Shown here: positions 1 through 28,148 of the stretch, in pieces
How positions within the stretch are numbered: position 1 is the stretch's first letter
How the letters are laid out: every line of letters starts with the position of its first letter
Origin: Elusimicrobiales bacterium
Lineage (GTDB): Bacteria > Elusimicrobiota > Elusimicrobia > Elusimicrobiales > UBA9959
Reading direction: 5' to 3'
Assembly (NCBI GenBank): GCA_028713125.1
Contig: JAQTOU010000005.1
Coordinates: 62,001 to 126,000, forward strand
Length of the DNA: 64,000 bases
Notes under the pieces: generated by a model
Seen by the model: the letters and a program-made list of their open reading frames with translations, nothing else
What the model was told of the DNA's origin: nothing
Databases searched by the model: none
Position numbers and translations under genes: made by a program

Positions 1-852
1 TATCTCGTCCCAGCGCTTCAGGGCGTCGCCGATAGGGGAAAGCGGTTTGAGAAAAACATAAGGCAGCTTGAGGCGGGCGTATTCGTCCACTATTTCCCGG
101 GCCCTGCCGAGAGAGGCCCGCGTGACCGTCAGCAGAGCGCTCGGCCCGCCCGGAGGCTCCACCCCGCGCCGCTCCTGGAAGTATTTTATCCATTTCACCG
201 CGGCCGCGTGCGAGTCCCCGCCGGAAAATTTCCTGTTGGCGTTATGCAGGTCCGCCGGCCCGTCCAGGGAAGTGCAGAGGGAAATATCGTTCCCGATAAT
301 AAAATCGGCCTTCGCCTTGTCCATCAGGCTGAAATTCGAAACCAGCGCCAGGGCCAGGTCCTTCCCCGTCTTCTCCGCCTTTTTCCGCGCGTAAACCGCG
401 GTTTCCTTCAGCGCCGCCCAGTTCACAAGCGGCTCCCCGCCCTGGAACTCTATCGTCAGGCCTTTCACCGGCGCGCTGAAAGCCAGGTCCACCGCGCGGC
501 GGGCCGTCGCCGGGCTCATATTTCTGCCCGCGCCCGAACCGGCCTGGCAATAAACGCAGCTATGATTGCATTTCTCGGTCAGGACCATTATATGCAGCCC
601 CGGGCCCATGCGAAGGTATTCGTTTGAATCCCGCCACTCCGTAAAAATAGAATCGAAATCAAGGCGCGAGCGCAAAAGCCCCGCCCTCTGCAGCCCTTCA
701 AAACCCGCTCCGCTCTTAAGCTTCCCCTCGGAGAAAAGCCTGAACTCGGCCGGCTTAAGCAGCGCCCAGCCTCCCAGATCGCCGGTAACCAGCACCCCCG
801 CCTTAAGGCGGCGCCAGTTAAAATAAGCCGGAAGATCGAGCTGTTTTTTCAT
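1..852 (-). CDS. HxsB-like radical SAM/SPASM maturase (partial, 3' end outside window)
   Basis: The ATG lies at 852 on the minus strand and the frame stays open to position 1, giving 284 residues of an unfinished protein. A radical SAM cluster motif CNHSCVYC is at residues 95-102, preceded by GPGLHIMV and followed by the EFQGGEPL motif. A short variable N-terminal domain (residues 1-80) comes first. The same order and motifs recur in the full-length gene at 21484-22947, so the two are paralogues. This arrangement is typical of HxsB, the His-Xaa-Ser system maturase, which modifies a peptide substrate by radical chemistry. The C-terminal SPASM cluster domain should lie to the left of the window. 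The substrate is not visible. Seen: motifs and paralogy. Inferred: HxsB assignment. Confidence 0.8.
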   Translation of the reverse strand, partial: MKKQLDLPAYFNWRRLKAGVLVTGDLGGWALLKPAEFRLFSEGKLKSGAGFEGLQRAGLLRSRLDFDSIFTEWRDSNEYLRMGPGLHIMVLTEKCNHSCVYCQAGSGAGRNMSPATARRAVDLAFSAPVKGLTIEFQGGEPLVNWAALKETAVYARKKAEKTGKDLALALVSNFSLMDKAKADFIIGNDISLCTSLDGPADLHNANRKFSGGDSHAAAVKWIKYFQERRGVEPPGGPSALLTVTRASLGRAREIVDEYARLKLPYVFLKPLSPIGDALKRWDEI

Positions 853-6511: not shown

Positions 6512-9037
6512 ATGGAAAGCATAGTCTTTTTCGGGAAAGGCGGCATAGGCAAGAGCACCATCGCCGCAAATATTTCCGTCCTTTTCGCCGCGAAGGGCAA
6601 AAAGGTCCTGCATGTCGGCTGCGACCCGAAGATGGATTCCACGCTTTCGCTCATGGGCCGCCGCATCCGGCCTTTCAACGACCAGGGCGGTTCGGACGGG
6701 GACGCGCTGCGCCGGTCCCTCCACCGCTCAATAAAAGGAATTGACTGCATCGAGGCCGGCGGCCCGCAGGCCGGGGTCGGCTGCGCCGGCGCCGGCATCG
6801 GCGCTATGCTCGACGCTATCAAGGACTCGTCGCTGATAGAGAAAGAAGGCTACGACACCGTGGTCTTCGACGTACTCGGCGACGTGGTCTGCGGCGGTTT
6901 CGCCGCGCCGCTGCGCCGGGGCTTCGCCAGCAAAGCGATCCTCGTCGTCTCCGAGGAACTTCTCTCCCTTTACGCGGCTAACAATCTTATCTCGATGGTC
7001 AATAATTACGCCAGGAACGGGGTGTTCCTGGCCGGTCTGGCGGTCAACGCCAAAGACAAGGCCGCCGTCAGGCTGGCGCACGATTTCGCGCGTGCCGCGA
7101 ATACCCGGGTGCTCGGCGTTATCCCGCGGGACGCCGCGGTCACCAGGGCGGAAAAAGCCCGCAAGCCGGTGGTCGCGCTCGAACCGCGCAGCGAAGCGGC
7201 CAGAAGCCTGGCGCGCCTCGCGAACGAGATAGCCTCGGCCCGCGTCCCCTCCTCGCCGCCCAGGATGCTTGGCCCGGCCGAGTTCGAAGCTTTCATGGAC
7301 GACAGACCGGTCAAACCTGCGACCAAGGGCGACAAGCCCGCCGCCGTACACGCCGCCAGGAAAAATTCCATCGCTCCCTCCGCCCTCCTCGAAAAATCCG
7401 GGTTCAGCATGACCGGCGTCACCGGGGGGCAGGTGGTCTGTTCCTGGAAAGGCGGCGGAACTACTTTCAGGCTTTTCATCGCCCCGGAGTCCGACGCCCG
7501 GCCGGGAATGTCCGCCGTGGGCAACTGGGCTTTCTGCTTCCTTCCGGGCGAAGAGCCCCCGCCCGACATTTCCCGCGAGGGCTTCAACGCCGCGCTGAAA
7601 GAGATCTCCGGCCTGCGCTTCGACGATTTCATCTCGGCCTTCAGCGGCAAGCTCGACTTTTACTCGAACGTCGACTCTTTCGGGAAGACCTCATCCCACC
7701 CGCTCCTGCCCGACAGCGACAAGCCGGAAGAGCCCTATATCGGCTTCGGCCAGTGGCAGCGCTTCCTCTTTTCCGACAGCTCCGGGATCTGCGTGCCCCC
7801 CGGCTCCGTGATGGTGGAGCACGGCGATAACGAGTGCCGCTTCAGCAGCTGCTCCCAGACCCCGCTGAGCACTTTCCAGAAGATAGCCGGGCTGGCCAAC
7901 GATTCCACCCCCTCCCTCGGGCCCCTACTGCCGAAAGAGGACCACATGATCGTCAACACCGATTTCCTGTACGAGGACGCGGTCAAAGGCGACGAGAAAA
8001 AGATAGCCGACACGCTGGCCGCGGCGGCCGCGCGCACCGGCGCCGGCGGCCTGGTGGAATTTTACAGCGGCTGCTCCCCCCTCATCCTTGCGAGCGACGT
8101 CTCCTCGTTCAGCGACAAGGCCGCCCGCGACCTGGGCGTGGAAGTGCTGCGGGAGAACTTCAACAGCTTTTATACACAGACGCCGGAGAAAGTGCGGGCC
8201 CGCTCCGCTTTCGTGGCCCGCAGGCTGAAGGCGCTCGGGCGCGTGAAGCCGGCGCAGGACGTGAACCTGATAAATTTCGGCAGCTCGCGCGAGCCGCTTA
8301 CCGCCCTGCTGGCCGCCAAAGGCCTGGCCGTGAAGGACTGGGACACGGAGTTCTACAAAGATATCGCCTCCTCGCGGCTGCAGGTCCTGTCTTCCGCCGA
8401 CCCGGTTCTGACCGGGGCTTTCGACAAATTGAAAATTAAATGGGTGGCGCCGGCGGCCCCCTACGGTTTCGTCGCCACCAACTCCTGGCTGCGAACCCTG
8501 TTCGCCGCCCTGGGCAGGAAAAGCCCTCCCGAAGGCTTCGGCCCCTCCGAAAAAGAGTCGGCCGCCCACGCCGCGGCGGCAAAAAAGCTTTCCCGCTTCG
8601 CCGCCGGCTTCGTGGCCTCGCCCGGTGAGTTCGGCATGCTGGAAGGAACCTGGGCCGTCTCCGGAGTTCCGCTTATCTCTTTTCTTTCCGAGGCCGGCCT
8701 GGCCCTCAGGCTTTTCGTCCACGCCGCGGGGCCCGAAGTAAAAGCCCTCGCTAAAACCGAGGCCGCCGCCCTGGCCGCCAAAACGGGGACGAAGCCGCGG
8801 CTGGCTTTCTTCGACAGCCCCGGCGCGCTTTTAAAGACGCTGGCCGACGACCGCGCCCTCCGCCTCGTCTACTCGGACATACCCCTCGACCCCCGGCTCT
8901 CGGCAGCCGGGAAGAACTCTTTTTCCGTGGCGGTCTGCGAGCCAGGCTACGAGGGCGCCCTGGAAACCCTGCGCAGGCTGGCGCAGCTTTGCGATTGGGA
9001 TTTCAATGAAAGATATTACCTCACAAAAAGCGTTTGA
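6512..9037 (+). CDS. Nitrogenase-like fusion: NifH-type iron protein joined to NifD-type component
   Basis: The protein has 841 residues. Residues 1-245 are a NifH/BchL-type ATPase with P-loop GKGGIGKST (8-16), VGCDPKMDST (35-44), and both 4Fe-4S cysteines, Cys91 in GVGCAGAG and Cys127 in DVVCGG. The residue matching NifH Arg100, the ADP-ribosylation site in CAGRG, is Ala. A linker and unrecognised segment (about 246-405) follows. Then comes a nitrogenase component 1-like region with Cys442, Cys447 and Cys521 (SGCSPLI, matching the P-cluster cysteine loop of NifD). Known relatives reduce N2, chlorophyll or F430 precursors, or thioethers; the substrate here cannot be read from sequence. H-D fusion is unusual because H must dock and release. 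The upstream in-frame ATG at 6404 lies inside the previous gene and was rejected. The gene overlaps the NifK-like gene by 32 nt. Confidence 0.85.
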   Translation: MESIVFFGKGGIGKSTIAANISVLFAAKGKKVLHVGCDPKMDSTLSLMGRRIRPFNDQGGSDGDALRRSLHRSIKGIDCIEAGGPQAGVGCAGAGIGAMLDAIKDSSLIEKEGYDTVVFDVLGDVVCGGFAAPLRRGFASKAILVVSEELLSLYAANNLISMVNNYARNGVFLAGLAVNAKDKAAVRLAHDFARAANTRVLGVIPRDAAVTRAEKARKPVVALEPRSEAARSLARLANEIASARVPSSPPRMLGPAEFEAFMDDRPVKPATKGDKPAAVHAARKNSIAPSALLEKSGFSMTGVTGGQVVCSWKGGGTTFRLFIAPESDARPGMSAVGNWAFCFLPGEEPPPDISREGFNAALKEISGLRFDDFISAFSGKLDFYSNVDSFGKTSSHPLLPDSDKPEEPYIGFGQWQRFLFSDSSGICVPPGSVMVEHGDNECRFSSCSQTPLSTFQKIAGLANDSTPSLGPLLPKEDHMIVNTDFLYEDAVKGDEKKIADTLAAAAARTGAGGLVEFYSGCSPLILASDVSSFSDKAARDLGVEVLRENFNSFYTQTPEKVRARSAFVARRLKALGRVKPAQDVNLINFGSSREPLTALLAAKGLAVKDWDTEFYKDIASSRLQVLSSADPVLTGAFDKLKIKWVAPAAPYGFVATNSWLRTLFAALGRKSPPEGFGPSEKESAAHAAAAKKLSRFAAGFVASPGEFGMLEGTWAVSGVPLISFLSEAGLALRLFVHAAGPEVKALAKTEAAALAAKTGTKPRLAFFDSPGALLKTLADDRALRLVYSDIPLDPRLSAAGKNSFSVAVCEPGYEGALETLRRLAQLCDWDFNERYYLTKSV

Positions 9038-10319
9038 AAAAACCTACCAGCTTCCATACCTGCTGGGCGTCTTCCTGGGCCTCAACGCCGTCAGCGACGC
9101 CTGCCTCATGGTGGACGGAGCGAACTGCGTCATGGTCAAAGCCGACCTGATAGCCGGCAACCACGACCTCTTCTCCACGCTTTTATCCGAATCCGGCCGC
9201 CACCGCATAATCTGCACGATGTGGACGCCAGTAAATCCCCCCAAGAACCCCGAGAAGAAGCTCGGCGCTATGCTTAACAGCGTGGCCGGCTCCGGGCAGT
9301 TCGGCGCGGTGCTCCTGACCGGCCTGCCTTACTGCTGGCTGGCCGGGATGGACTATGACGGAGTGGCGCGGGCCGTCTCTTCCAAGGCGCCGGTGGCCGC
9401 TATTCCGGCCAAGTCGATGGATTCGGACTGGCTGGAAGGCTATGACCTGACCCTGGAGGCGCTGGCGCGCGCCCTGCCGGAGAAGCGGCCCGGAAAACGC
9501 GCGAAAAACAAAGTCGCCCTGATCGGCTATATGTTCGACAGGAACGAAAGCGACCATGCGGCAAATTTGAAAGAACTTACAAGGCTGCTGAAAATTTCTG
9601 GCCTAGATGTTGTTTCCATCTGGCCTTCCGGCGGCGCCGTCGCGGAACTGGCGCGGGTGTCCGAAGCCTCCCTTATCGTTTCCCTGCCCTACGGCAGGAA
9701 AGCCGCCAAAACCCTGGCCCGTAAATACGGCTGCGAACTCCTCGAGACCGGCCTGCCTATGGGGCTGAAAGGGACCTCCTCGTGGCTGGCCGCCGTCCGC
9801 CGCGCCGCCGGCCTGCCCGGCGGCCTGCCTCAGGAAGTTTTACAGGAAGAGCGGGAAGCCGCAAAGGCCATAGCCCCGGCGCTTCGCGCAATACTCCACA
9901 AAAAGCTCATGTTCGCCGGGGACCCTTACCTTTATTCCGCTTTCGCTTCTTTCGCGGCCGAGCTGTGCGCGACCCTGCCCCTGGTTTTCCTGGATTCTTC
10001 CAGGCGCCCGCTCGGCGCCGGGGCCGCGGAGGGAACGGTTCTTTTCGCTCCGTCCACCGAGGACGCCAAAGCCGCCAGGAAAGACCTTTCGCGCTATCGC
10101 TCGCCGAACCTTGCCGTAGTTAATTCTTTCGCGCTTACCGAGGGTTTCGCCGACGGGCTCCCTTTCGTGGAATTCGGTTTCCCGTCTTACGGCCACCACT
10201 GCCTTCTCGACGAGCCGTATTTCGGGTTCAGCGGCGCCCGGTCCCTGGCCTCGCGCATGCTGAATTCCCTGCAGACAAGGAGCAAGGCCAGCTCTTCGGG
10301 AGCGGACCGCTCGGCGTAA
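9006..10319 (+). CDS. NifK/NifD-like nitrogenase component 1 subunit
   Basis: The protein has 437 residues. It resembles the second subunit of nitrogenase-like reductases. N-terminal Cys33 and Cys41 (DACLMVDGANC) and Cys110 (TGLPYCW) fall where bridging-cluster cysteines sit in NifK/BchB-type proteins. Rossmann-like segments follow, such as KNKVALIGYMFDRNE and the PYGRKAAKTLA region. The start overlaps the end of the HD fusion by 32 nt, so the two are translationally coupled and probably form one complex. Length is shorter than NifK (about 520) and close to the compact nitrogenase-like proteins. The ApbE gene follows after 27 nt. The family is fairly sure; the reaction is unknown. Confidence 0.75.
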   Translation: MKDITSQKAFEKTYQLPYLLGVFLGLNAVSDACLMVDGANCVMVKADLIAGNHDLFSTLLSESGRHRIICTMWTPVNPPKNPEKKLGAMLNSVAGSGQFGAVLLTGLPYCWLAGMDYDGVARAVSSKAPVAAIPAKSMDSDWLEGYDLTLEALARALPEKRPGKRAKNKVALIGYMFDRNESDHAANLKELTRLLKISGLDVVSIWPSGGAVAELARVSEASLIVSLPYGRKAAKTLARKYGCELLETGLPMGLKGTSSWLAAVRRAAGLPGGLPQEVLQEEREAAKAIAPALRAILHKKLMFAGDPYLYSAFASFAAELCATLPLVFLDSSRRPLGAGAAEGTVLFAPSTEDAKAARKDLSRYRSPNLAVVNSFALTEGFADGLPFVEFGFPSYGHHCLLDEPYFGFSGARSLASRMLNSLQTRSKASSSGADRSA

Positions 10320-10346
10320 GAAGTTCTGTTTCGGGAGGGGGTTACT

Positions 10347-11381
10347 TTGTCGATCAAAAAAACCATATTGCTGGTTTCCGCCCTGGCGCTGGCCGCCGGA
10401 GGCTGCTCAAGGCGCGGAAGCACCGCGACTTTCACTCAAAAAGCCTATATCATGAACGTGTCCGCGCAGTTCCGGGCCTACGGCCCTCACACGCCGGGGG
10501 CGAAGGAGCTTGCCGACGAGATCTTCGCAGAATGGGAGAGGATTTCCGGCGAGCTCAGCTATAGCGACGCTTACAGCCTTACTACGGTAGTGAACAAAAA
10601 GGCCGGAAAGGAGTGGGTTCCCGTCACGGACGAGTTCATGCGCCTGCTCCTGCTCGCCCTGGACTATAGCCGCCTTACCGAAGGGGCCTTCGACATAACT
10701 TTCGCGCCGCTCTGGCCGCTCTGGAAGGAAGCGGCTTCGAGCAAAACCCTGCCGGCAAAAGCTGATATAGAGAAGGCGCTGCAGAGCATAGGCTCCAAAT
10801 ACATCCAGGTCGACGCGGCAAAAAAACTGGTGAGGTTTTCCCGCCCCGTAGAAATAAACCTGGGCGGCTTGCTGCGCGGCTATTCTTTCGAGCGCGCCTA
10901 CCAGATCCTCAAAAAGCGGAACCCGCCATACCCGGTGCAGCTCAGGCTGGGCGGGAACATGCTGGTCTACGGGAAAAGGCCGTGGAAGTACCGGGTCCCG
11001 GACCCTATGAACAAAGGGAAGAACCTGGGCATGTTCGCCTTCGAGGACGGGATGATAATCTCCTCTTCCGGGCGCGACGTTTTCGTAGAGATAGAGGGAA
11101 AGCTTTATTCCCATATCCTGGACCTGCGGACCGGGTATCCGATAAAGGATTTCTCTACGCTTACCATCTATTACCCCGGCATCGAGGACGAGAATTTCCT
11201 GGCCTCCGCGGCGCTGGCCGTGATGGGCAGGGAAAAAGCTTTCAAACTTCTGAGCGGAGTAAAAGGCACGGCCGCCGTCTGGATAGACGGTGAAGGAAAG
11301 ATGCACCAGCAGTTCAATGAAACCAGCAAAGCGAAGTGGGAAGAGGACAGGAGTTCTTTCAACAGGATGCTGGGCAGATAA
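10347..11381 (+). CDS. apbE: FAD:protein FMN transferase-like lipoprotein (ApbE family)
   Basis: The protein has 344 residues starting at a TTG codon behind a strong GGGAGGGGG site. A lipoprotein signal ends in LAAGGC, so the protein should be anchored outside the cytoplasmic membrane. ApbE motifs are visible: INLGGLLRGYSFERA (usual form DLGGIAKGYA) and SHILDLRTGYP with SSSGRD upstream. ApbE enzymes attach FMN to a threonine or serine of exported redox proteins such as RnfG/NqrC, which feed electrons to nitrogenases in some bacteria. Its place directly after the NifK-like gene suggests a flavinylated electron-transfer partner. No Rnf genes are in the window. A perfect terminator follows at 11392-11432. 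Confidence 0.85.
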   Translation: MSIKKTILLVSALALAAGGCSRRGSTATFTQKAYIMNVSAQFRAYGPHTPGAKELADEIFAEWERISGELSYSDAYSLTTVVNKKAGKEWVPVTDEFMRLLLLALDYSRLTEGAFDITFAPLWPLWKEAASSKTLPAKADIEKALQSIGSKYIQVDAAKKLVRFSRPVEINLGGLLRGYSFERAYQILKKRNPPYPVQLRLGGNMLVYGKRPWKYRVPDPMNKGKNLGMFAFEDGMIISSSGRDVFVEIEGKLYSHILDLRTGYPIKDFSTLTIYYPGIEDENFLASAALAVMGREKAFKLLSGVKGTAAVWIDGEGKMHQQFNETSKAKWEEDRSSFNRMLGR

Positions 11382-13086: not shown

Positions 13087-14337
13087 CTACTTTAGCAATG
13101 AAAGGTATCTTTTTAGAGCTGAAATGAAGATCGCCGTATCTTGGGGGGTGTTGTAAGCAAAAAAGGAAATTCTTATTGTTTCGCGGTAGCCGGAGGCGAG
13201 GCAGGCTAGGTCGGCGCAGTGACGGCCGGTGCGCACGGCTATGAAGCGGCCTTTAAGCTGCTGGTTCAGGAAGATATTGAAATCGGGGACCGAGAAGCCT
13301 TTTTTAACGGGGACGATGGAGATGAGGGAACCCTCAAGAAGATCTTCCCGCGCGCCGAGGACGCGCACGCCTTTAACGCCGGCCAGGCTTTTAAGCGCAT
13401 CGCCCACTAAAGCTGAAACGTGGGCGCGGATATTTTCGAAGCCGCACTTTTCAAGCCGGGTAATAGCCGCCGCCAGGCCCGCCGCGCCGGAGCAGTTCTG
13501 CACCCCGGCTTCGAAGGCCTGGTAGTTGCCGAGGTATTTAACTTTATAGCGGCCGCCCGAAAGCGTAACGTCCGCCACCGTGCCGCCGCCCACCCGCCAG
13601 GGGCGGAGCTTGCCCAGCAGGTCCCTCTTAACGTACAGGGCGCCGGTAGAGTACGGGGCGCCCAGCTTGTGCCCGGAGAAAGCGCAGGCGTCGGCGCCGT
13701 AAATAGCGCCACTGCCGCCGTGGGTAGGCGCGTACTGCGCGTCGTCCGCGAAAAGATAAGCGCCGGCGGCATGCGCCAGCTCCGCGGCGGCGGCGATATC
13801 GGTCCGGCCGCCGAAAATATTAGAGGCGTGCGTAAAGCAGACCAGGGCGGTCTTTGAGCCCAGCATTTTGCGGCAGGCTTCCAGGTCCGGCTTGAAGTTC
13901 TTAAGCGGGATCATCCGCAGCTTTATCTTCCCGGCGGAAGCCAGCCTTTCGAAAGGCAGGAAAACGGCATTATGCTCAACGGGGGAGAGGATGACCTCGT
14001 TCCTTTCAGGCGTGAACGGGAAAGAATTGGCCAGCAGGTTCACCGCGTCCGTCACGCCGGCCGTGAAAATTATTTCCTCGGGCGAGCCCGCGCCCATGAA
14101 AGAGGCCACCCGGGAGCGCGCCGCGTAGAAATTCTCCTCCATGGCCGCGGCCAGGGCGTGCGAGGACCGCTTTCCGCCGCAGCCGCCCAGCTCCAGCATA
14201 TGGCGGCGCTGCTCGTCGGCGGCGCAGCGCAGCTTGAGCACGGTGCAGGCGCTGTCCAGGTAGACCAGTTTCCGGCCCTCGAAGCGCCCGCCCAGCGCGG
14301 GGAATTCCTTTTTCAGAGCGGCAATTTTTTCTTTCAT
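13087..14337 (-). CDS. SufS/CsdA-like cysteine desulfurase (class V aminotransferase)
   Basis: The protein has 416 residues. The PLP lysine is K224 in SGHKLGAPYSTG and the persulfide-carrying cysteine is C374 in RTGRHCADL, the typical SufS pattern. It would release sulfur from cysteine for iron-sulfur clusters or for direct sulfur insertion. It is the last gene of the radical SAM run and overlaps the preceding gene by 4 nt (ATGA). The nearby enzymes together would need many 4Fe-4S clusters, so a dedicated sulfur donor makes sense. A role as a C-S lyase acting on a modified product is possible. No SufE or SufBCD genes are adjacent. Confidence 0.82.
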   Translation of the reverse strand: MKEKIAALKKEFPALGGRFEGRKLVYLDSACTVLKLRCAADEQRRHMLELGGCGGKRSSHALAAAMEENFYAARSRVASFMGAGSPEEIIFTAGVTDAVNLLANSFPFTPERNEVILSPVEHNAVFLPFERLASAGKIKLRMIPLKNFKPDLEACRKMLGSKTALVCFTHASNIFGGRTDIAAAAELAHAAGAYLFADDAQYAPTHGGSGAIYGADACAFSGHKLGAPYSTGALYVKRDLLGKLRPWRVGGGTVADVTLSGGRYKVKYLGNYQAFEAGVQNCSGAAGLAAAITRLEKCGFENIRAHVSALVGDALKSLAGVKGVRVLGAREDLLEGSLISIVPVKKGFSVPDFNIFLNQQLKGRFIAVRTGRHCADLACLASGYRETIRISFFAYNTPQDTAIFISALKRYLSLLK

Positions 14338-15179
14338 AAGGCCTTGTGAACGGCGATATAATCTTTTCTCGGGCCCGGGCAGAGTTCAATGAACCGGCAG
14401 CCCCGGCAGGCCGGAACCTGCTTTTTCTCTTCCAGGTGCGGCCCTTTATGACCGTCCCTCATTTTTACCATATCCACGTTCAGCGCGTAAAATTCGCCGA
14501 GGAAGCAGGGCGGGATATGGTCCACTTCACAGCGTATTTCATTCTCGCGGCAGATCGAAAGCGCTTTTTCCAGGTAGGGCTTTACCGCCGCGTATTTGGG
14601 CAGGTATTTCGCCCCGCCGGCGCGGCCGAGGCCTTTTATATAGCTGAACTGCAGCCAGGCGACGCCCTTGAGGTTTTTCGCGGCATAAGCGGCGAAGGCG
14701 GGCAATTCTTTATAATTCAGCTCGCTGATGACATGCGTCAGCCTTACCGCGCCCCCGGCCCCGATAAGCCGCTTAACTCCGGCGAGCCTTTTTTCAAAGC
14801 CGCCGGCCGCGCGCGTTATCTTAAAGTCGAGGTCCGGGGTTGACGCCGGGAAATTCACATTAAAATAACCGTTCGCCGCGTTAAGGGCGCGGACGATGTT
14901 TTTTATTTCCCCGCCGGGCAGTTCAGCCGCGGCCAGCGCGTTCGTCTGCAGTTCCGCCCGCCTGCCGAGTTTCTTGACCGCCGCAAGCAGAAGACAGAGA
15001 TTCCTGGCCCCGGCCAGCAGCGGCTCGCCGCCCGAGATCTGCACCAGGCCGGGCGGCATGAGAGTTATTTCTTTCAGCCAGCCTTTAAGCGTAACCCCTT
15101 CGTCTCCTCCGTCTTCGGCCGGATAAGAGCAGAACACGCAGCGCTGGTTGCATTTGCGGAAAAGGTGTATTAAAGCCAT
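14334..15179 (-). CDS. Radical SAM protein (array member 5)
   Basis: The protein has 281 residues. It begins almost directly with the cluster motif CNQRCVFC (C10, C14, C17), followed by ISGGEPLL. It ends with an auxiliary cysteine motif CRGCRFIELCPGPRKDY, which is shared in form with its neighbours (CxxC-x5-C-G/P, then an aromatic residue). An isolated PPCFLGEFY segment lies before it. This fits a shortened SPASM/twitch domain carrying one extra cluster. It overlaps the genes on both sides (4 nt with SufS, 10 nt with 15170-16363), so it is part of a tightly coupled operon. Substrate unknown, probably a peptide or a small cofactor precursor. Confidence 0.8.
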   Translation of the reverse strand: MALIHLFRKCNQRCVFCSYPAEDGGDEGVTLKGWLKEITLMPPGLVQISGGEPLLAGARNLCLLLAAVKKLGRRAELQTNALAAAELPGGEIKNIVRALNAANGYFNVNFPASTPDLDFKITRAAGGFEKRLAGVKRLIGAGGAVRLTHVISELNYKELPAFAAYAAKNLKGVAWLQFSYIKGLGRAGGAKYLPKYAAVKPYLEKALSICRENEIRCEVDHIPPCFLGEFYALNVDMVKMRDGHKGPHLEEKKQVPACRGCRFIELCPGPRKDYIAVHKAL

Positions 15180-16363
15180 TTCTTAAGCTCCGCGTAGGGT
15201 TTGGCCAGGGACCAGCGGTAGATGCCGCGCTCGAAGCTGCTTTTTACCATACCCTTGGAAATTAGGCTGGCGGCCGAAGTCATTACGGCATTTCCGTCGG
15301 AACAGTCGCGGCACAGCACGATATTTCTGGAAAGAGAGAGCACTTCTTTGGTAGAGGCGCCATCTTTCAGGCGCAGGATCTCCACCAGGCATTTCTCATT
15401 GTCGGAAAGATACACGCGTCCGGAGGCCGGCGCTTTTTTAACTGCGCCGTTTTTCCCGACAGGCTTGAAGCCGCCCCAGCCGAAATTAGCTATATAATGC
15501 TCGTCCGCGCCGCGGCATTTTTTATTCAGCGCGCAGGCGCGGCAGGGCTTCCCCTTTACCTTGGCCGCGTCGGCGTTAGCGTCCAGGTCGGTCCTTCCCC
15601 CAAGCGGGTCCGTCACCAGCGTATTAAAATGGTCGAGGCCGATAGAAAGTTTTTCGCGGCCCTTAAGAAAGCAGGGCGGGGTGTTCAGAAAAAGTATCTC
15701 CCTCGGCAGGCCGGCGGCTTCCATGGTCCGCACGGCTTCCTCGAAATAAGGTTCGCAGTCGGAAAGGCTTATCCCCAGCTTTTTGGCGTTAAGAGCCATG
15801 GCCCCGTTATAGACCGGGTAAATTATCACGAAATTGGTGATGCCGCGCCCGAGGTAGAATTTTATTATCTCCGGCAGGCGCCTGTAGTTAAGCCGGTTCA
15901 CCAGGATATTGGTCCCAAGCCGTATCTTAAGTTTCCGCAGATTTTCCAGGCCCGCGAGCGCTTTCTTCAAAGCGCCGGGAACCCCTACCAGCCCGTCGTG
16001 GTCCGCCGCTTTATCGGTAGTGAAAGAGAATTTGCAGAAAGTCAGACCGGCTTTCACCAGCGCGCGGCAGAAAGCGGGGTCCGCCAGCTTTATCCCGTTG
16101 GTCTGCACGCGGATGAACCGGAAACCCACGGATCTGCCGAGCGCTATCGCCTTGAGGATATCCGGGCATATCAGCGGTTCCCCGCCGGTGAAGCCGAGGC
16201 GGCGGTAGCCGTTCTTATAGGCGGAATAGATATTGCGCGCGATAGCGTCGAAAGGGGCGTTAAGCGATTTGTCGAAATCGCCCTGGGAGCAAAAGCCGCA
16301 CTTCGCATTGCAGTTATAGTTGAGGATAAGCTCGTAACATTTGCCGGCGCCTTCTTCTTTCAT
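15170..16363 (-). CDS. Radical SAM protein with C-terminal winged-helix-like domain (array member 4)
   Basis: The protein has 397 residues. The cluster motif is CNAKCGFC (C18, C22, C25), followed by FTGGEPLI. An auxiliary motif CRACALNKKCRGADEHY lies near residue 275, then a GxxxFKPV tail like those of its neighbours. After this tail come about 85 extra residues (from about 310) that resemble a small winged-helix or peptide-recognition domain (LVEILRLKDGASTKEVLSL and following). This addition is missing from the paralogues. It overlaps the flanking genes by 10 and 4 nt. The extra domain may recognise a leader peptide; that is inference. Confidence 0.78.
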   Translation of the reverse strand: MKEEGAGKCYELILNYNCNAKCGFCSQGDFDKSLNAPFDAIARNIYSAYKNGYRRLGFTGGEPLICPDILKAIALGRSVGFRFIRVQTNGIKLADPAFCRALVKAGLTFCKFSFTTDKAADHDGLVGVPGALKKALAGLENLRKLKIRLGTNILVNRLNYRRLPEIIKFYLGRGITNFVIIYPVYNGAMALNAKKLGISLSDCEPYFEEAVRTMEAAGLPREILFLNTPPCFLKGREKLSIGLDHFNTLVTDPLGGRTDLDANADAAKVKGKPCRACALNKKCRGADEHYIANFGWGGFKPVGKNGAVKKAPASGRVYLSDNEKCLVEILRLKDGASTKEVLSLSRNIVLCRDCSDGNAVMTSAASLISKGMVKSSFERGIYRWSLAKPYAELKKWL

Positions 16364-17286
16364 TTTTTGACCGCCTTCAGCTCGGCGTCGCCGTATTGCC
16401 TGAGGTATTCCACCCAGAGCCCCTCGCAGGCGGAGTAAAGGCGGCAGCCGCGGCAGCGGGCCGTTTTTTTGCGGGCCACTTTGGAGCGCGAACCTGTAGC
16501 GTCTTTATTGAAAAAATCCGGGGCCCAGTGCTCGGTCAGGAAGATCTCGCGCTCGTTAATTTCGCTTATCTGGCCCAGGCAGTCCTTGAAATGGCAGAGC
16601 GGCACATAGCGGGCCTTCCATTGGTCCAGCCCGGCGGCCCGCCCGAGGGCAAGCGCCCGGCGCATATGCGGCGCGGCTTTGGAGATGCGCGGCACAAGTC
16701 CCTTAAAATCGTTCCTGGCCCCGCCGTAATTCGGGTCCACGAAGATATATTCCACGTTGCGTATCCGGTTCTTTATATAGAACCTGGCGAGCGCGGACAG
16801 GCCGGCCATGTTCTGCTTCACCACGGTAGTATTCCCGCTGATCCGCTCGAAACCGAGGGCGCGCAAATTCTTCAGGCCTTTTTTCAGCTGCGCGAAACTC
16901 CCCGGCGCGCGGGTGAGCGCGTCATGCGTACGGGCATCGGGACCGTGCACCGAGAAAATCAGGGAATCGATGCCGGAGCGGATTATCCGGCGCGCGGCCG
17001 CGGGGTCGGAGAAAACCCGGCCATTGGTGGCGCAGGTGACCTGGGATATGCCGAGCTTTTTCGCGGCGGCCACGACGCGGTTGAAGTCGGGGCGTATCGT
17101 CGCCTCGCCGCCTATGATCTCCAGTATATAAGCGCCCTTGGCTTTTGCCCGCAGGACCTCGCGCAGCAGCTCCGCCGTGGTCTTCTGCGGATAAGCGCGC
17201 TTATCCGCGTCGATGCAGAAAGCGCAGTTATTATTGCAGGCGTACCCCGTAAAGAGGACGATCTTAAGTTTTTTTTCTTCTTTCAT
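16360..17286 (-). CDS. Radical SAM protein (array member 3)
   Basis: The protein has 308 residues. The cluster motif is CNNNCAFC (C17, C21, C24). The GGE motif appears as IIGGEATI. The auxiliary motif CRGCRLYSACEGLWVEY precedes the tail GDAELKAVKK. It is a paralogue of the genes at 18441-19337 and 19337-20254, sharing length, auxiliary cysteines and tail. It overlaps the downstream gene by 4 nt and starts 6 nt after the A24-like gene ends. Substrate unknown. Confidence 0.8.
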   Translation of the reverse strand: MKEEKKLKIVLFTGYACNNNCAFCIDADKRAYPQKTTAELLREVLRAKAKGAYILEIIGGEATIRPDFNRVVAAAKKLGISQVTCATNGRVFSDPAAARRIIRSGIDSLIFSVHGPDARTHDALTRAPGSFAQLKKGLKNLRALGFERISGNTTVVKQNMAGLSALARFYIKNRIRNVEYIFVDPNYGGARNDFKGLVPRISKAAPHMRRALALGRAAGLDQWKARYVPLCHFKDCLGQISEINEREIFLTEHWAPDFFNKDATGSRSKVARKKTARCRGCRLYSACEGLWVEYLRQYGDAELKAVKK

Positions 17287-17292
17287 GCGATG

Positions 17293-18444
17293 CTATCTGA
17301 AAAAGCCCACTATATTCCTGTCCAGCACGAGCAGGAGGGCCGCGCCGGCGAAGATCCAGAGGGCGAAGGGGCGGCCTTTGATGATCTCCACCTTAGGGTC
17401 CGGAACCGTCAGTTTCTTCATCCACTCTTTGACCGCCGCCACCTGCTCTTCCGTCAGGCCGTCCTTGAAGCAATCCTCGAACAGCTCCGTATAATCCGGG
17501 TTGGCCTTGATAGAGCGGCAGGCCTTGGTGGAAAGCAGGAGGCCGGGCTCCAGTTCGGCGGCAGTCAGGTACTGGGTGTCCTTCCTTTCCATCAGGAATT
17601 CAAGCATGAACCGCCCGAAGAAAAGAAGCAGTCCGAGCTTCAGCAGATTGGTCCCGGCCGTGACGGCCATAAGCCAGAGCCGGTCGGGGAACATAAAATA
17701 GCCGGCGAAGAAATAAGCCAGGTAGCAGGCCGAGCTGATATAGGTCCAGTTACGGCTGCGGAACATTTCGCCCACTTTGTCCCAGAGTATGAACAAGAAG
17801 AAGAAAAGCAGGTCCGCCCGCGAAAAGAAATGGCTTATAAAACCGCGGGCCTCCATCGAGAGCACCTGCTGGAGCAGGAACAGGAAGCCGATATTCAGAG
17901 CCGCGGCGGCTATCGCGAACATATTCTTGCCGCCGGCCATGTCCGCAAGCCGCTTTTTCACGTCCTGCCACATCTCGGAGAAAAAGTCCGACGGGGAGGC
18001 CGAGGCGAAACCCGAGGCGATATGGCTGCCCACGGCCCAGAGAGCGGCCGAGACGAAAATATTTATCAGCAGGCTCAGGAAAAGGAAGGCCGGGAAATTT
18101 TTCAGGTAGGGGTTGGCCAGCGGCAGGGCCGCCGAGACCAGAATGAAGAACTTCGCGTCCCCGGCTGGCCAGACCTCGGCGTACCAGAGTATTATCCCGG
18201 CCAGCGCAGACCAGAAGAAATGCTGGCAGAAGAGCCAGTAAAAATTCCCGACCAGGAAACTCTGCGTGCGGCCGGCATAACCCATCCAGGTATAAAGCCC
18301 GAACACGGCCAGCCCCGCCGCAAGCAGCCTGAAACCGTCCACTATGCTCGCATTGGTGATCTTGCGCGTGGCCATATCCCTGCTTACCACCGAGACGGCC
18401 CAGGCGGTGAACCCGGCGAGGAAGACCATCGAGATATACTTCAT
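17293..18444 (-). CDS. Membrane protein resembling A24 prepilin peptidase, with C-terminal extension
   Basis: The protein has 383 residues with about eight hydrophobic segments. The first third resembles an A24 aspartic peptidase: D23 in SRDMATRKITN (usual form DxxxxxIPN) and D96 in PAGDAKFF (usual form GxGDxK), about 70 residues apart as in the family. These enzymes cleave prepilin-type leaders inside the cytoplasmic membrane. The remaining 230 residues form further membrane segments plus a soluble region near the C-terminus and are not recognised. It lies between radical SAM genes and overlaps the upstream one by 4 nt. It may process or export the modified product. The A24 call rests on two short motifs. 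Confidence 0.55.
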   Translation of the reverse strand: MKYISMVFLAGFTAWAVSVVSRDMATRKITNASIVDGFRLLAAGLAVFGLYTWMGYAGRTQSFLVGNFYWLFCQHFFWSALAGIILWYAEVWPAGDAKFFILVSAALPLANPYLKNFPAFLFLSLLINIFVSAALWAVGSHIASGFASASPSDFFSEMWQDVKKRLADMAGGKNMFAIAAAALNIGFLFLLQQVLSMEARGFISHFFSRADLLFFFLFILWDKVGEMFRSRNWTYISSACYLAYFFAGYFMFPDRLWLMAVTAGTNLLKLGLLLFFGRFMLEFLMERKDTQYLTAAELEPGLLLSTKACRSIKANPDYTELFEDCFKDGLTEEQVAAVKEWMKKLTVPDPKVEIIKGRPFALWIFAGAALLLVLDRNIVGFFR

Positions 18445-19337
18445 CTTTTCACCGGCTTCAGTTCGGCGTCACCGAACATTTTTTCATATTCAAGCATCAG
18501 CCCCAGGCATTTTTTCTTAAGGACGCAGCGCCCGCACTTTTTCGCGGGGTAAACCCTGTCTTCAGGGGGCAGCGTTATCCAGCAGAGCGGCCGCAGCTCC
18601 TTGCGGACCAGGCAAAGCGGGAAATGGTAAAGCCGGAAATCCTTGAAACGCCGGATAAGCGGGAGGCAGCCGCCCAATATCGCGGCCGATTCCGACAGTT
18701 TAAGGGCCAGTTTCCGGTGGTTCGCCAGCGACATCCCCTCTATCTCGTAATGTATAGCCGTCACGCTGTAGGCCGAGGTATCGGGGAAAGTCTTAAGCAG
18801 GAATTCAAGCGTTTTCGGAAGTGCCGCCGCGCTTTTTTTGTGGATAACGAGCCGTATCTCCACCCGGGGGCCTCCCGGCGCGGAAAGAAGGTTCTTCAGC
18901 CCTTTGACGGTCTGGGAGAAGCTGTTTTTTACGCCGGCGACAGCGTCGTGGATCCTGGCCGAAGGACCGTGCAGCGCTATCGCCACGGAAAAAGGCGGCT
19001 TGGCCACGGCGCGGAATTTTTCCGCGAACCCGGCATTGCCGAAGCGGCGGCCGTTAGAAAGCAGCGTTATCGGCACGCCGGGCAGGCGCGCCCTGAAATA
19101 GGAAAGAAGCTTGAAAAAATCCGGGTGCAGGGTCGGCTCGCCGCCGGTCAGGCTGACGAAGTCGGCGCTTCCGTCGTTCTTCAGGTAGACCGGCCCCAGC
19201 CCCTTGAGGTAGCGCTCAAGCTTCCCGATCTGGCCTTTAAGCGCGTAATGAGCTCCGGGCTGCCGCGCGAAAGCGGGCAGATTGGTGCACATCACGCATT
19301 TATTATTGCACTTGTTCCAGAAGGGGATATCGGGCAT
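18441..19337 (-). CDS. Radical SAM protein (array member 2)
   Basis: The protein has 298 residues. The cluster motif is CNNKCVMC (C10, C14, C17), followed by SLTGGEPTL. The auxiliary motif CGRCVLKKKCLGLMLEY and the tail GDAELKPVKR match its paralogues. It overlaps the upstream gene by 1 nt and the A24-like gene by 4 nt, so the order in the operon is fixed and expression is coupled. Substrate unknown. Confidence 0.8.
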   Translation of the reverse strand: MPDIPFWNKCNNKCVMCTNLPAFARQPGAHYALKGQIGKLERYLKGLGPVYLKNDGSADFVSLTGGEPTLHPDFFKLLSYFRARLPGVPITLLSNGRRFGNAGFAEKFRAVAKPPFSVAIALHGPSARIHDAVAGVKNSFSQTVKGLKNLLSAPGGPRVEIRLVIHKKSAAALPKTLEFLLKTFPDTSAYSVTAIHYEIEGMSLANHRKLALKLSESAAILGGCLPLIRRFKDFRLYHFPLCLVRKELRPLCWITLPPEDRVYPAKKCGRCVLKKKCLGLMLEYEKMFGDAELKPVKR

Positions 19338-20254
19338 CAGCGTTTAGCGGCGGGCGCCTTTCCTTTTACCGGCTTGAATTCGTCCCAGCCGTAGAGTCCC
19401 GGGTATTCGCGCCAGGGGCCTTCGCAAAGCTTGAACCAGCGGCAGGGGCGGCATTCTTTGCGCTTCGCCTTCCCCTCGTCGCGGCGGTAATCGCCGTAAC
19501 TCTCGATGTAAAAATCGGCGTCGGAGACCGGGCCTTCGGGAATAACGCGCTCGGCCACGCAGTCCTCGTAGCCCTTCATCAGGCAGAAGGGGATCGCCTC
19601 CGTATAGCCGGCCACTCCGCCTTCGCGGCCGACGTCCAGCGCTTTTTTCAAATAAGGCATCACCGCGGTTTTTTTGGGCGCGAGCGTCTTCCGGTTTTCC
19701 CAGGCGGAGCCGACCAGGTGGACGTAAGCGAACTGGAACTGGTTGACCTTGAGCCGCACCAGCAGCTTCGCCAGCCCGGGGAGGTCTTTATAGTTCACCG
19801 AAGTGATGACGGAATTGGTCAGCACGTACATGCCGAGCTTCTTGCAGTTAAGGATGCCGCTGACCACTTCTTTAAAGCTGCCTTTGGCCCGAGTAAGTTT
19901 TTCGTGGATCTCCGGCGTGGAGCCGTGCAGGGAGGGCCCCATCTCGGTCACGCCGGCGTTTTTGAGCTCGAGGCAGTAATCGTAATAGGCGAAGCGGCGC
20001 CCGTTGGTCTGCACCTGCACGCTTTCATAGCCCATCGCCCTGGCGGCCCGCACCGCGGCCGGGAGGTCCGGGTGCAGCGTGGGCTCTCCGCCGGTGAAGA
20101 CGGCGGCGCTTACGCCCTGCTTTTTAGCCCGGGCCAGGTCGGCTTTGATCTGCTTCAGGCTTTTCCCGCCCACGCGGCTGCGCTTGCCGCCCTGCGCGCA
20201 GAAATCGCACATATTGTTGCAGTTGAAGCCTATTTTTATGTCGATGCGTTTCAC
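19337..20254 (-). CDS. Radical SAM protein (array member 1)
   Basis: The protein has 305 residues. The cluster motif is CNNMCDFC (C12, C16, C19), followed by FTGGEPTLH. The auxiliary motif is CRPCRWFKLCEGPWREY and the tail is GWDEFKPVKG. The FTGGEPTLHPDL block and the overall length tie it closely to the gene at 18441-19337. The exported cysteine-rich protein ends 7 nt upstream. Substrate unknown. Confidence 0.8.
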   Translation of the reverse strand: MKRIDIKIGFNCNNMCDFCAQGGKRSRVGGKSLKQIKADLARAKKQGVSAAVFTGGEPTLHPDLPAAVRAARAMGYESVQVQTNGRRFAYYDYCLELKNAGVTEMGPSLHGSTPEIHEKLTRAKGSFKEVVSGILNCKKLGMYVLTNSVITSVNYKDLPGLAKLLVRLKVNQFQFAYVHLVGSAWENRKTLAPKKTAVMPYLKKALDVGREGGVAGYTEAIPFCLMKGYEDCVAERVIPEGPVSDADFYIESYGDYRRDEGKAKRKECRPCRWFKLCEGPWREYPGLYGWDEFKPVKGKAPAAKR

Positions 20255-25300: not shown

Positions 25301-25441
25301 TATATTCTAATATATGAAAACTTTCTGCCGAGGGTCCAAGTACCCAGCCGCGTCTGGGCCAAAGGACCCACTCAGCAATGCGGATAGTTTAATGATAAAA
25401 TACAAGCGTGGCCGTCTGCCGGGCATGGCTCCCGACACGGC
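25301..25441 (+). promoter_or_regulatory. Structured leader with a possible pseudoknot, upstream of the radical SAM-U32 operon
   Basis: Between divergent genes, a -10-like TATATT/TATTCT (25301-25308) precedes a nested hairpin: GGGTCC (25332-25337) with GGACCC (25364-25369), and CCCAG (25343-25347) with CTGGG (25354-25358), separated by 5-nt internal loops on both sides. The apical CCGCGT (25348-25353) can pair with ATGCGG (25378-25383), giving a 6-bp pseudoknot. A second hairpin (GCCGT 25411-25415 with ACGGC 25437-25441) ends 10 nt before the ATG, where no Shine-Dalgarno is seen. This layout looks like a ligand- or protein-responsive leader. It matches no class I can name. Confidence 0.45.
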
Positions 25442-25451
25442 ACATACGGCA

Positions 25452-26372
25452 ATGAAAAAGAACGCGCCTAAAACCGGCTGGATAAGCGAGCAGCTCTGCG
25501 TGCAGACGGCGCGCACCTGCAACCTTTACTGCGTCTATTGCCAGAACCCTCCGACCGGCGTCTCCGCGCCGAAAGAAAAGACCGCCGCGCTGATCAGGAA
25601 GAAAGGGATCAAAGCGGTAAGCCTCGAAGGCGGCGGGGAACCGACGGCGGGCGCGGATTTCTTCGACTGGCTCAAGACCCTCAAAGCGGCCGGGGTAAAA
25701 AATTTCATGCTCTCCACCAATGCCGTGGCGCTCTCGGACCCGGAATTCTGCGGCAAGGCGGAAAAAGCCGTGGACTATTTCACTGTAAACTTCCCCGCCT
25801 CCGATCCCGAGACCTACCGGAAAGCCACCCGCAGCGTAAAATTCGACATGGCCGTAAGGGGCCTCGAGAACCTGAAAGCCCTGGGCGCCGAGAACAAGAT
25901 CCGCCTCTTCCACATAATATTCAGGGACAATTACCGCCGGCTCCCCGCCTTCGCCGACTGGGTCATAAAGAAATTTCCCGGCCTGGCTTTCGTCAACCTG
26001 ACCTTCGTGCGCAATGCCGGGCGCGTCGGAGACAGCGCGGACATAGTCCCACGCTACAGCGAAGTAGAACCTTTCTTAAAAGTTGCCCTCGCCAAACTGA
26101 AACTTAAAAAGATAAAAGCCGTGGTCCAGAACGTCCCGCTTTGCCGGCTTAAGAATTTCGAGGGCTTCTCTTTCGAATTCCAGCGCTGGCGCAGGGGCGA
26201 CCGGATCCTGGAAGCCGGCATCGCCGAAAAGGCGGGAAACCCGGCCTGCAAACGCTGCGCGCTGGAACAGGCCTGCTGCGGGGCGAGGAAGGATTACCTG
26301 CGGATACACGGGAACAAAGAGCTGGTCTCTTCGGACAAAGACCCCGAAAGCATCGCTCCCGAAGCGTTTTAA
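25452..26372 (+). CDS. Radical SAM protein next to the U32 pair
   Basis: The protein has 306 residues from the ATG at 25452. An in-frame ATG at 25314 would translate through the structured leader and was rejected. The cluster motif is CNLYCVYC (C23, C27, C30), followed by SLEGGGEPTA. The auxiliary motif CKRCALEQACCGARKDY has the same form as in the minus-strand array, so it is another paralogue. It heads a three-gene operon with 3-nt and zero-nt gaps to the two U32 genes. Substrate unknown. Confidence 0.8.
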   Translation: MKKNAPKTGWISEQLCVQTARTCNLYCVYCQNPPTGVSAPKEKTAALIRKKGIKAVSLEGGGEPTAGADFFDWLKTLKAAGVKNFMLSTNAVALSDPEFCGKAEKAVDYFTVNFPASDPETYRKATRSVKFDMAVRGLENLKALGAENKIRLFHIIFRDNYRRLPAFADWVIKKFPGLAFVNLTFVRNAGRVGDSADIVPRYSEVEPFLKVALAKLKLKKIKAVVQNVPLCRLKNFEGFSFEFQRWRRGDRILEAGIAEKAGNPACKRCALEQACCGARKDYLRIHGNKELVSSDKDPESIAPEAF

Positions 26373-26375
26373 CCG

Positions 26376-27323
26376 ATGAAAATAGTCTCATGTTTCTCCG
26401 ACCTCAAGGAACTGGAGCCGCTGGCCGGGGCCGGCGCCGACGAATTCTATACCGCCGTCGAGGGGCTGCCGGCCTTCAGCGTCGGGTTCCTGCCGGGCCG
26501 AGACCTGGCCCCGGCCATAAAGCAGGCCCACGCGCTCGGGAAGAAAATAGCGCTCGCGGTCAACGCCATCCACGCCGCGGCCACCGATAAAAGGCTCGCC
26601 GCCATAGAGAAGCGGATCAGGTCCCTGGACAAGCTCGGGATGGACGCTTTTATCATTTCCAACCCCTATTTGCTCGGCCTGTTCTCAGGCCGGGGGAAAC
26701 GCCTGCGGGCGGAGCTCCACCTGAGCTCGGTGCAGCCGGTCTTCAACAGCCTCAGCGCCGCTTTTTTCTCCCGCTTCGGCGTCTCCCGCCTCATCCTCCC
26801 GAACCAGCTCTCGCCGGTAGAGGCGCTGAAGACGCTCGCTTTCTGCCGCGAGCGCGGCATAGAGACCGAGATCTTCGATTACCGCTTTTTCGGCTGCGCC
26901 TATATCAACGGCCGCTGCCAGCTGCACAAGCCCGGCCACTACAATTTGAAGTCGGCCATCCTCGGCGGGAATCTCTGCCGCATAAACGCGAAAGCGGGCG
27001 GGCTGGTGAAACTCAGGACCCTGGACCTGCCCGGCCGCGCCAAAGAGCTCCCGGCGCTTGTAAAACGCCTCGAGGACAGGTTCACCTGCGGCGGCGCCCC
27101 CAGGCTCTCCAACGCCGCGGCTTTCTTCGATTTCTTCGCCTCGGGCGCTCACTACCTGAAGTACGGCACGCGCCACGACGCCCCGGAAGTGAAAGTCAAA
27201 AAGGTGGGCGAACTCCGCGCAATGCTCGGCCTGGCGGAAAGACTTTCGGCCTCGCTGCCCCCGGCTGAAGCCCGGCGGGACTTCATCAGGGAATTGTCGC
27301 GCTGGAACGGGGGCGGCTTTTAA
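26376..27323 (+). CDS. U32-family protein A
   Basis: The protein has 315 residues. It begins like U32 proteins (GADEFYTAVEGLPAF), has the family segment ELHLSSVQPVFNSLSAAFF and RLILPNQLS, and contains a cysteine set in GCAYINGRCQLHKPGHY and GGNLCR that could hold an iron-sulfur cluster. U32 proteins include collagenase-like peptidases and the UbiU/UbiV, TrhP and RlhA enzymes, which help oxygen-independent hydroxylation. The stop codon is followed at once by the ATG of the second U32 gene, so the pair may form a heterodimer as UbiU/UbiV do. The actual reaction is unknown. Confidence 0.72.
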   Translation: MKIVSCFSDLKELEPLAGAGADEFYTAVEGLPAFSVGFLPGRDLAPAIKQAHALGKKIALAVNAIHAAATDKRLAAIEKRIRSLDKLGMDAFIISNPYLLGLFSGRGKRLRAELHLSSVQPVFNSLSAAFFSRFGVSRLILPNQLSPVEALKTLAFCRERGIETEIFDYRFFGCAYINGRCQLHKPGHYNLKSAILGGNLCRINAKAGGLVKLRTLDLPGRAKELPALVKRLEDRFTCGGAPRLSNAAAFFDFFASGAHYLKYGTRHDAPEVKVKKVGELRAMLGLAERLSASLPPAEARRDFIRELSRWNGGGF

Positions 27324-28148
27324 ATGGCTCTGGAAAAAGGCATAAGGCTCGGGATAATGACGCTGGCCGCGCTGAAGAAATCCGGCGGGCTGGACGCCGC
27401 GCTGAAGGGCTTCGAGCGGTTCTACCTGGGCCCGGAATTCTGCGAGAACCTGATCGACGGCTCCGTCTGCGAGGAGGCCGCCTGGCTGCAGGGAAAGGGC
27501 AAAAAGATCTGCCTCCTGACGCCGCTCCTGAGCGAGAAAGGCGCCGGGCTCCTCGACAAAGTCTTTAAAAAACTTTTGAAGTTCGCGAAGAACGGCAGGC
27601 TGGACCCGGCGGGGCTGGAGATCACGGTGAACGATTTCGGGACCGTGGAACTGGCGAAAAGGAACGGCCTCCCGTTCACGCTGAACGCCGGGCGGCTCCT
27701 CCGCGACAATGTTTTCGACGATACCGGGAAGGCCATCACGGTCCACAGCGGGCTGGCCCTGAAATTTTTCCGGGAGCTCGGCATCAAGCGCTTCGAGCTT
27801 TCCACCCTTGGCCACCGCCCCGACGTGAATTTTGCCAAGGGCGCGCTCTTCGGTTTCGACCGGAGGGAGTTCAGGCTGACCCTTTATTACCCCTACCTCA
27901 ACCTCACCACCACGCGCACCTGCCTGGTCGGGATGCGCGACGTGCCGACCGAAGAATCGGTGCGCGGCGTGGAATGCTCGCGCGAGTGCCTCATCAGCTC
28001 CTTCGAGCTGGCGCACCCGTCGATAAAGGAAAAGCTGCTGGTCCGCGGCAACACCGTCTTCCTCGAGTTCCCGGACAAGTTCTACGCTTCGGAAAAAAGC
28101 CTCGCAAGAATGAACGTCGACCGCCTGGTCTACGCCCCCTTCCCCTGA
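27324..28148 (+). CDS. U32-family protein B
   Basis: The protein has 274 residues and is shorter and more divergent than its partner. Recognisable U32 features include EITVNDFGTVELAKRNGLPFT, FRELGIKRFELST and a late cysteine group TRTCLVGMRDV and VECSRECLISS. These four cysteines could bind a 4Fe-4S cluster as in UbiV. It starts directly after the stop of protein A (TAAATG), so translation is coupled. A strong terminator follows at 28148-28179. Likely partner of protein A; function unknown. Confidence 0.65.
   Translation: MALEKGIRLGIMTLAALKKSGGLDAALKGFERFYLGPEFCENLIDGSVCEEAAWLQGKGKKICLLTPLLSEKGAGLLDKVFKKLLKFAKNGRLDPAGLEITVNDFGTVELAKRNGLPFTLNAGRLLRDNVFDDTGKAITVHSGLALKFFRELGIKRFELSTLGHRPDVNFAKGALFGFDRREFRLTLYYPYLNLTTTRTCLVGMRDVPTEESVRGVECSRECLISSFELAHPSIKEKLLVRGNTVFLEFPDKFYASEKSLARMNVDRLVYAPFP

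Follow-up and report, generated by a model that had tools for sequence, protein, structure and literature searches.

What is reduced by a nitrogenase-like system whose ATPase is covalently joined to its D-type subunit? The question is raised by a locus in the genome of an Elusimicrobiales bacterium (GenBank assembly GCA_028713125.1), within a 64,000-nucleotide stretch of contig JAQTOU010000005.1 (positions 62,001 to 126,000; hereafter the window), where a fused H-D gene (HD) is followed by a gene for a NifK-like subunit (K). Among biological reductions, those of nitrogenase-type enzymes include some of the hardest; to the best of our knowledge, the characterized enzymes keep the ATPase as a separate, cycling protein. 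On balance, HD-K is probably an ATP-driven nitrogenase-superfamily reductase of an organic substrate, with a three-cysteine cluster between D and K and possibly with a tie to the maturation of Hxs peptides. Its parts, at their positions in the window, are:

6512..9037, forward strand: fused H-D protein, 841 aa, a single open frame in which a linker domain connects a NifH-type ATPase to a NifD-type domain
6512..7246, forward strand: H module (HD residues 1-245), with P-loop GKGGIGKST and Fe-S ligands C91 and C127
7364..7666, forward strand: linker domain (HD residues 285-385), predicted alpha/beta, without a Pfam match
7709..9034, forward strand: D module (HD residues 400-841), with C442 and C521 as its sole invariant cysteines
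9006..10319, forward strand: K-like subunit, 437 aa, with C41 as its sole near-invariant cysteine

The frames and Pfam matches agree with a sequence-only reading of this DNA, which had described an H-D fusion with an overlapping K-like gene. HD matches Fer4_NifH over residues 3-260 (E 2e-65) and Oxidored_nitro over residues 432-689 (30.2 bits against a cut-off of 28.6), and the K-like gene, which overlaps the HD gene by 32 bp, matches Oxidored_nitro with E 3e-38. The proteins thus belong to the nitrogenase superfamily, having a P-loop ATPase with two cluster cysteines and D and K domains that both exceed the Pfam cut-off. An AlphaFold2 model of HD (predicted local distance difference test score, pLDDT, 80.6) comprises an Fe-protein fold and a D domain, with a small linker domain between them. 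Its H part matches solved Fe proteins with Z 36 and a root-mean-square deviation of 2.0 over 263 residues; the solved-structure matches listed for this model are filled by the H module and say nothing on D. The K model (pLDDT 92.4) finds its best solved match in BchB (Z 36.7), with NifK and AnfK at about 35 (fold range Z 33-37). Further, the host genome (3.48 Mb; completeness 100%, contamination 1.6%) has no Oxidored_nitro match besides HD and K, which leaves no NifE or NifN there, and the NifB profile gave no match over cut-off in 35 genomes (best 25 bits, in G000). Because HD and K are the sole such matches and NifB is absent, the lack of maturation genes first noted for the window extends to the whole genome.

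The fusion is not confined to this locus. Among 341 genomes of the phylum Elusimicrobiota searched for homologs, HD-K was carried by 22 genomes of the host's family (f1), where full-length fused homologs are 41-93% identical, and H-D open frames were also found in the more distant families f12, f14 and f15. An alignment across f1 and these more distant relatives comprised 46 distinct fused proteins with 30-93% identity. The sequence-only reading had asked whether the fusion recurs in related genomes and had named an assembly error as the outcome that would undo it; since many independently built assemblies share the fusion, across f1 and distant families, an assembly artifact can be rejected. 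Genomes of f15 often carry several paralogous H-D-K sets, some with a stand-alone H, and in relatives from Myxococcota H, D and K are separate genes. The linker domain is present in 30 of 49 fused proteins. A search for it in unfused D proteins gave no match, and its inheritance from an unfused D was therefore rejected. One further neighbor had been counted in the operon by the sequence-only reading:

10347..11381, forward strand: ApbE-type lipoprotein flavin transferase (E 2e-47), outside the conserved unit

This gene adjoins HD-K only in the host genome and in G143, the closest relative; relatives with 81-85% identity lack it there, and for this reason it is no longer counted as a member of the operon.

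Phylogenies and profile scores were used to compare HD-K with known clades. In the H tree, the H domains of Elusimicrobiota form one group (63 rows, support 95/97), in which fused and stand-alone proteins are mixed, separate from NifH/VnfH, MarH, group IV, BchL and BchX; the deepest joins of this tree are weak and its root is arbitrary. In the D/K tree, which includes the group IV genes of the phylum Elusimicrobiota, the D sequences group in one clade (support 100/100) and the K sequences in another (100/98), both distinct from BchN/B/Y/Z, from the NifDK of this phylum and from group IV. H, D and K consequently all lie outside MarHDK and group IV, with MarH represented in the H tree. Profile scores point the same way. 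The H module reaches 213.9 bits with NifH against a cut-off of 394.35. Scores for the proteins of the dark-operative protochlorophyllide oxidoreductase (DPOR) are 168.5 of 345 bits for BchL, 65 of 420 for BchN and 48.6 of 490 for BchB, and those for chlorophyllide oxidoreductase (COR) are 152 of 331 bits for BchX, 31.9 of 529 for BchZ and 20.1 of 425 for BchY. CfbC gives 219.7 of 402 bits, CfbCD having been compared by hidden Markov model score and not by tree. The placement in trees that the sequence-only reading had proposed thus sets both halves apart from the Nif, Mar and Bch clades, with CfbCD distinguished by profile score alone. Taken together, these comparisons support the view that HD-K is a nitrogenase-like system divergent from all characterized clades tested.

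The cysteines that could bind metal clusters are strongly conserved. The P-loop, C91 and C127 of the H module are invariant in all 46 fused homologs, which bears out the NifH cluster cysteines assigned earlier. In D, C442 and C521 are kept in 88 of 88 domains, fused and unfused and from both phyla, and align with NifD C88 and C154 and with BchN C51 and C112. C41 of K is kept in 64 of 64 proteins (set A2) and in 78 of 82 of a wider set, and aligns at, or one column off, NifK C95, the BchZ cysteine and BchB D36. None of the aligned D domains has an equivalent of NifD C62 and BchN C26, the cysteine that completes the D-side set of three in nitrogenase, DPOR and COR, and the column of the NifD cysteine that binds the iron-molybdenum cofactor (FeMo-co) is not Cys in the D family. 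Of the six cysteines that hold the nitrogenase P-cluster, D and K accordingly keep only the equivalents of C88, C154 and C95. We infer from this pattern a single Fe-S cluster with three cysteine ligands at the D/K interface, its fourth ligand being a non-cysteine residue or an open site; neither a P-cluster nor FeMo-co is predicted. Such a cluster would differ from that of DPOR, where three cysteines of BchN are joined by an Asp of BchB, and also from that of COR.

If so, catalysis may proceed as follows. Two H modules would pair around one [4Fe-4S] cluster held by C91 and C127 and bind ATP; electrons would pass from the H pair to the three-cysteine cluster (D C442, D C521 and K C41) and from there to an organic substrate in a cavity between D and K, as in DPOR and COR. 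This general class of chemistry is well supported. The fusion, the ligand pattern, the absent pathways and the Hxs genes nearby are read directly from sequence; the cluster type, the flow of electrons, the stoichiometry and the class of substrate are deductions. Because H and D share one chain, their ratio would be 1:1 rather than the 2:1 of fully loaded nitrogenase, and a D2K2 core would have one H2 pair and not two. A single pair would then have to act on the two halves of the core in turn, unless pairs form between H modules of neighboring complexes. An H-D fusion conserved throughout a bacterial family challenges the view that free dissociation of the Fe protein is required in every cycle, and it offers a system of fixed stoichiometry for the study of gated electron transfer.

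What the substrate might be is suggested by the surroundings of the operon, in which genes for radical S-adenosylmethionine (SAM) enzymes of the Hxs peptide system are frequent:

1..828, reverse strand, crossing the left edge of the window (contig C7:61458-62828): HxsB radical SAM maturase, 431.5 bits (cut-off 370)
C7:59841-60167, some 2 kb beyond the left edge of the window: HxsA4 peptide gene, 70.6 bits (cut-off 55), with 16 His-Xaa-Ser repeats
14334..20254, reverse strand: five radical SAM genes in an array, HxsC- or HxsC4-like (14334-15179, 15170-16363, 16360-17286, 18441-19337 and 19337-20254), each scoring highest with HxsC or HxsC4 and below the curated cut-off
17293-18444, reverse strand: membrane protein inside this array, no Pfam match
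21161-21487, reverse strand: HxsD-like, match under cut-off
21484-22947, reverse strand: HxsB, 480 bits (cut-off 370)
22913-23383, reverse strand: HxsD-like, match under cut-off
25314..28148, forward strand: HxsC-like radical SAM gene followed by two U32-type genes (a UbiU/TrhP-like gene and its partner)
26376-28148, forward strand: the U32-type pair, directly after the HxsC-like gene; the UbiU/TrhP-like member is under cut-off

HxsA, HxsB and HxsC-like genes, the last under cut-off, are thus encoded in one locus of the host. The HxsC-like array recurs near HD-K in other genomes, the trio of an HxsC-like gene and a U32 pair also adjoins HD-K in G124, G120 and G132, and HxsA repeats occur in stretches beside H-D-K in G000, G143, G124, G119, G132, G144, G156 and G200 (one of them in f15). 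The radical SAM neighbors of HD-K score better with HxsC than with NirJ, AhbC or AhbD. Moreover, HxsB is present in all 22 f1 carriers and, in f15, in 20 of 23 carriers of H-D-K versus 8 of 21 genomes without it (p 9e-4); at the level of genera, HxsB is present in 25, and these include all 11 carrier genera (p 3e-8, uncorrected for relatedness). No more than 50 kb separates HxsB from HD-K in 11 of the 22 f1 carriers, a figure that assumes random placement and is based on carrier and neighbor counts read by hand. In Myxococcota, where only carriers were counted, HxsB is over cut-off in three of four and split over two contigs in the fourth. As a separate observation, His-Xaa-Ser repeats are near-universal in the genomes searched, with or without HD-K (74 of 80, from f1 and related Elusimicrobiota).

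On this basis, the product of the Hxs radical SAM enzymes is the best current lead for the substrate, if an unproven one, and the identification of that substrate as an Hxs-derived peptide or cofactor is put forward tentatively. In its most specific form, which we consider unlikely, the proposal would make HD-K the first member of the nitrogenase superfamily to act in the maturation of ribosomal peptides, its target being HxsA after modification by radical SAM enzymes or a redox cofactor excised from that peptide, with ATP-gated electrons of low potential and a site-differentiated three-cysteine cluster driving the reduction. To our knowledge, no nitrogenase-like gene is known in the Hxs system. 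Several observations weigh against a link of this kind. The co-occurrence counts are not phylogenetically independent, and both HxsA and HxsB are found in most f1 genomes without HD-K, so Hxs needs no HD-K; a strict dependence of Hxs on HD-K was accordingly rejected. In four genomes, HD-K lies beside infC-rpmI-rplT-pheST (names read by eye) and no radical SAM gene adjoins it. In Myxococcota, no HxsA repeat was found near HxsB, and H-D-K adjoins a gene for a TonB-dependent receptor, with weak similarity to B12 and haem receptors, and an energy-coupling factor (ECF)-type transporter, a setting that suits an imported cofactor.

The four genomes with HD-K alone among housekeeping genes could also be explained if HD-K, as an ATP-driven reductase, had a small molecule for its substrate that is related neither to Hxs peptides nor to tetrapyrroles (a quinone precursor, for example). 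The U32 pair, of the UbiU/UbiV kind, would fit such a role, adjoining HD-K as it does in G124, G120 and G132 and being present in the host locus; the repeated occurrence of HD-K in Hxs loci of two Elusimicrobiota families argues against it, and this explanation is regarded as possible though doubtful.

A second alternative is a role in the synthesis of a new cofactor, with HD-K reducing a double bond in the ring of a haem- or corrin-type tetrapyrrole, as DPOR, COR and CfbCD do with theirs. This agrees with the published view of the nitrogenase paralogs of group VI in Elusimicrobiota, for which, in the papers that cite the original report, a modification of tetrapyrroles is said to have been proposed (Meheust et al. 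2020, ISME J 14:2907, as cited in PMC9391474, PMC11257099); this is also the report of divergent Elusimicrobia paralogs to which the sequence-only reading had referred. The fold of K, nearest to BchB among solved structures, and a ligand pattern closest to that of COR, where BchZ too has Cys only at the C95 position and Pro at C153, lend it weight. The pathway itself is largely missing from the carriers. HemB and HemC are both absent in 16 of the 22 f1 carriers, among them G119, G120 and G121 (100% complete), G152 (99%), G156 (98%), G136 and G149 (97%) and G124 (96%), G136 having only a 38-position HemC fragment. SUMT, which opens the routes to sirohydrochlorin, F430 and corrins, is over cut-off in four f1 carriers (G000, G138, G143 and G151), absent in the other 18, and not over cut-off in two f15 genomes tested. 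The HD of HemB-less G120 is 65% identical to that of the host and keeps all ligands. Because of these absences, a self-made tetrapyrrole cannot be the general substrate of HD-K. The host genome itself has HemB, HemC and SUMT, and a substrate of this kind is therefore possible there, if not required by the family; the TonB receptor and ECF transporter beside the Myxococcota genes would likewise make salvage possible. Additionally, no chelatase or tetrapyrrole-pathway gene was seen adjoining HD-K, and the radical SAM neighbors are HxsC-like rather than of the NirJ, AhbC or AhbD kind. A tetrapyrrole reductase is thus judged rather unlikely; the leading proposal is weakened as a general answer, and the context points instead to peptide maturation.

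Finally, a divergent enzyme of the N2-fixing or methylthio-alkane (MarHDK/group IV) type is highly improbable: the H module shares 39-40% identity with MarH and 38-39% with NifH, but H, D and K fall in separate clades, NifB, NifE and NifN are missing, only three of six P-cluster cysteines are kept and the cofactor cysteine is absent, and from the lack of NifB, of the P-cluster ligand set and of that cysteine it follows that HD-K almost certainly does not fix N2.

Other features of the locus and its relatives were recorded. The HD-K operon is flanked by genes for YgeW, a knotted carbamoyltransferase (1140-2330, forward strand; 675 bits, over cut-off), and YgeY, a selenium-linked hydrolase (11441-12631, reverse strand; 567 bits, over cut-off). 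This pair is also near HD-K in G138 and G143, and YgeW and M20 labels occur in the G119 and G120 loci. An asparagine-synthase family amidotransferase with similarity to lasso-peptide cyclases (2427-4199, reverse strand; 274.6 bits, cut-off 267.1) is encoded beside the Hxs and HD-K genes. The membrane protein at 17293-18444 (reverse strand) resembles, by eye, a prepilin peptidase of the A24 type, and a cluster of proteins similar to it is found in f15 H-D-K loci (L075, L083, L085, L126, L131, L133 and L134). A protein of about 700 aa (721 aa), without a Pfam or NCBIfam match, adjoins H-D-K in Myxococcota and in one f15 locus, at:

L118, 10810-12975: protein of about 700 aa
L119, 13517-15646: protein of about 700 aa
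L132, 1268-5325: protein of about 700 aa

Conventional-looking nif genes with high Oxidored_nitro scores, apart from the fused family, occur in L144, L143, L038 and L039 (genomes G328, G301, G300 and G164).

How, then, does HD-K as a probable reductase of an organic substrate compare with known systems? COR (BchXYZ) likewise has an ATP-driven H2 protein, a D/K core with a single cluster and a K-type cysteine only at the C95 position. It differs in that BchY has the C62 equivalent that D lacks here, its H protein is separate and its proteins fall in different clades. DPOR (BchLNB) provides, in BchB, the best fold match to K, and the D cysteines correspond to BchN C51 and C112; unlike DPOR, HD-K has no equivalent of BchN C26, a Cys replaces BchB D36, H is fused and the clades are again different. 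In the CfbCD system of F430 biosynthesis, CfbC gives the H module its best NCBIfam score (219.7 bits, far under the cut-off of 402), and CfbD is a homodimer without K (PMC11423573), whereas D and K are two subunits here. With NifHDK and MarHDK, HD-K has the overall architecture in common and lacks their P-cluster set, cofactor ligand and NifB. The Hxs peptide system supplies neighbors of HD-K (HxsB, HxsD-like, HxsC-like and HxsA4) and is also found without it. Group VI paralogs, which share with HD-K the Elusimicrobia phylum, reportedly stand in radical SAM surroundings and have relatives in Myxococcota. From the phylum, the context and named relatives, of which GWF2_62_30 and GWD2_63_28 were retrieved in this analysis, HD-K most likely belongs to group VI. 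So far as this analysis could establish, three points are new relative to what has been described for that group: the conserved ligand signature, the lack of tetrapyrrole synthesis in most carriers and the assignment of the neighboring radical SAM genes to Hxs. The context of peptide maturation makes the question of the substrate testable.

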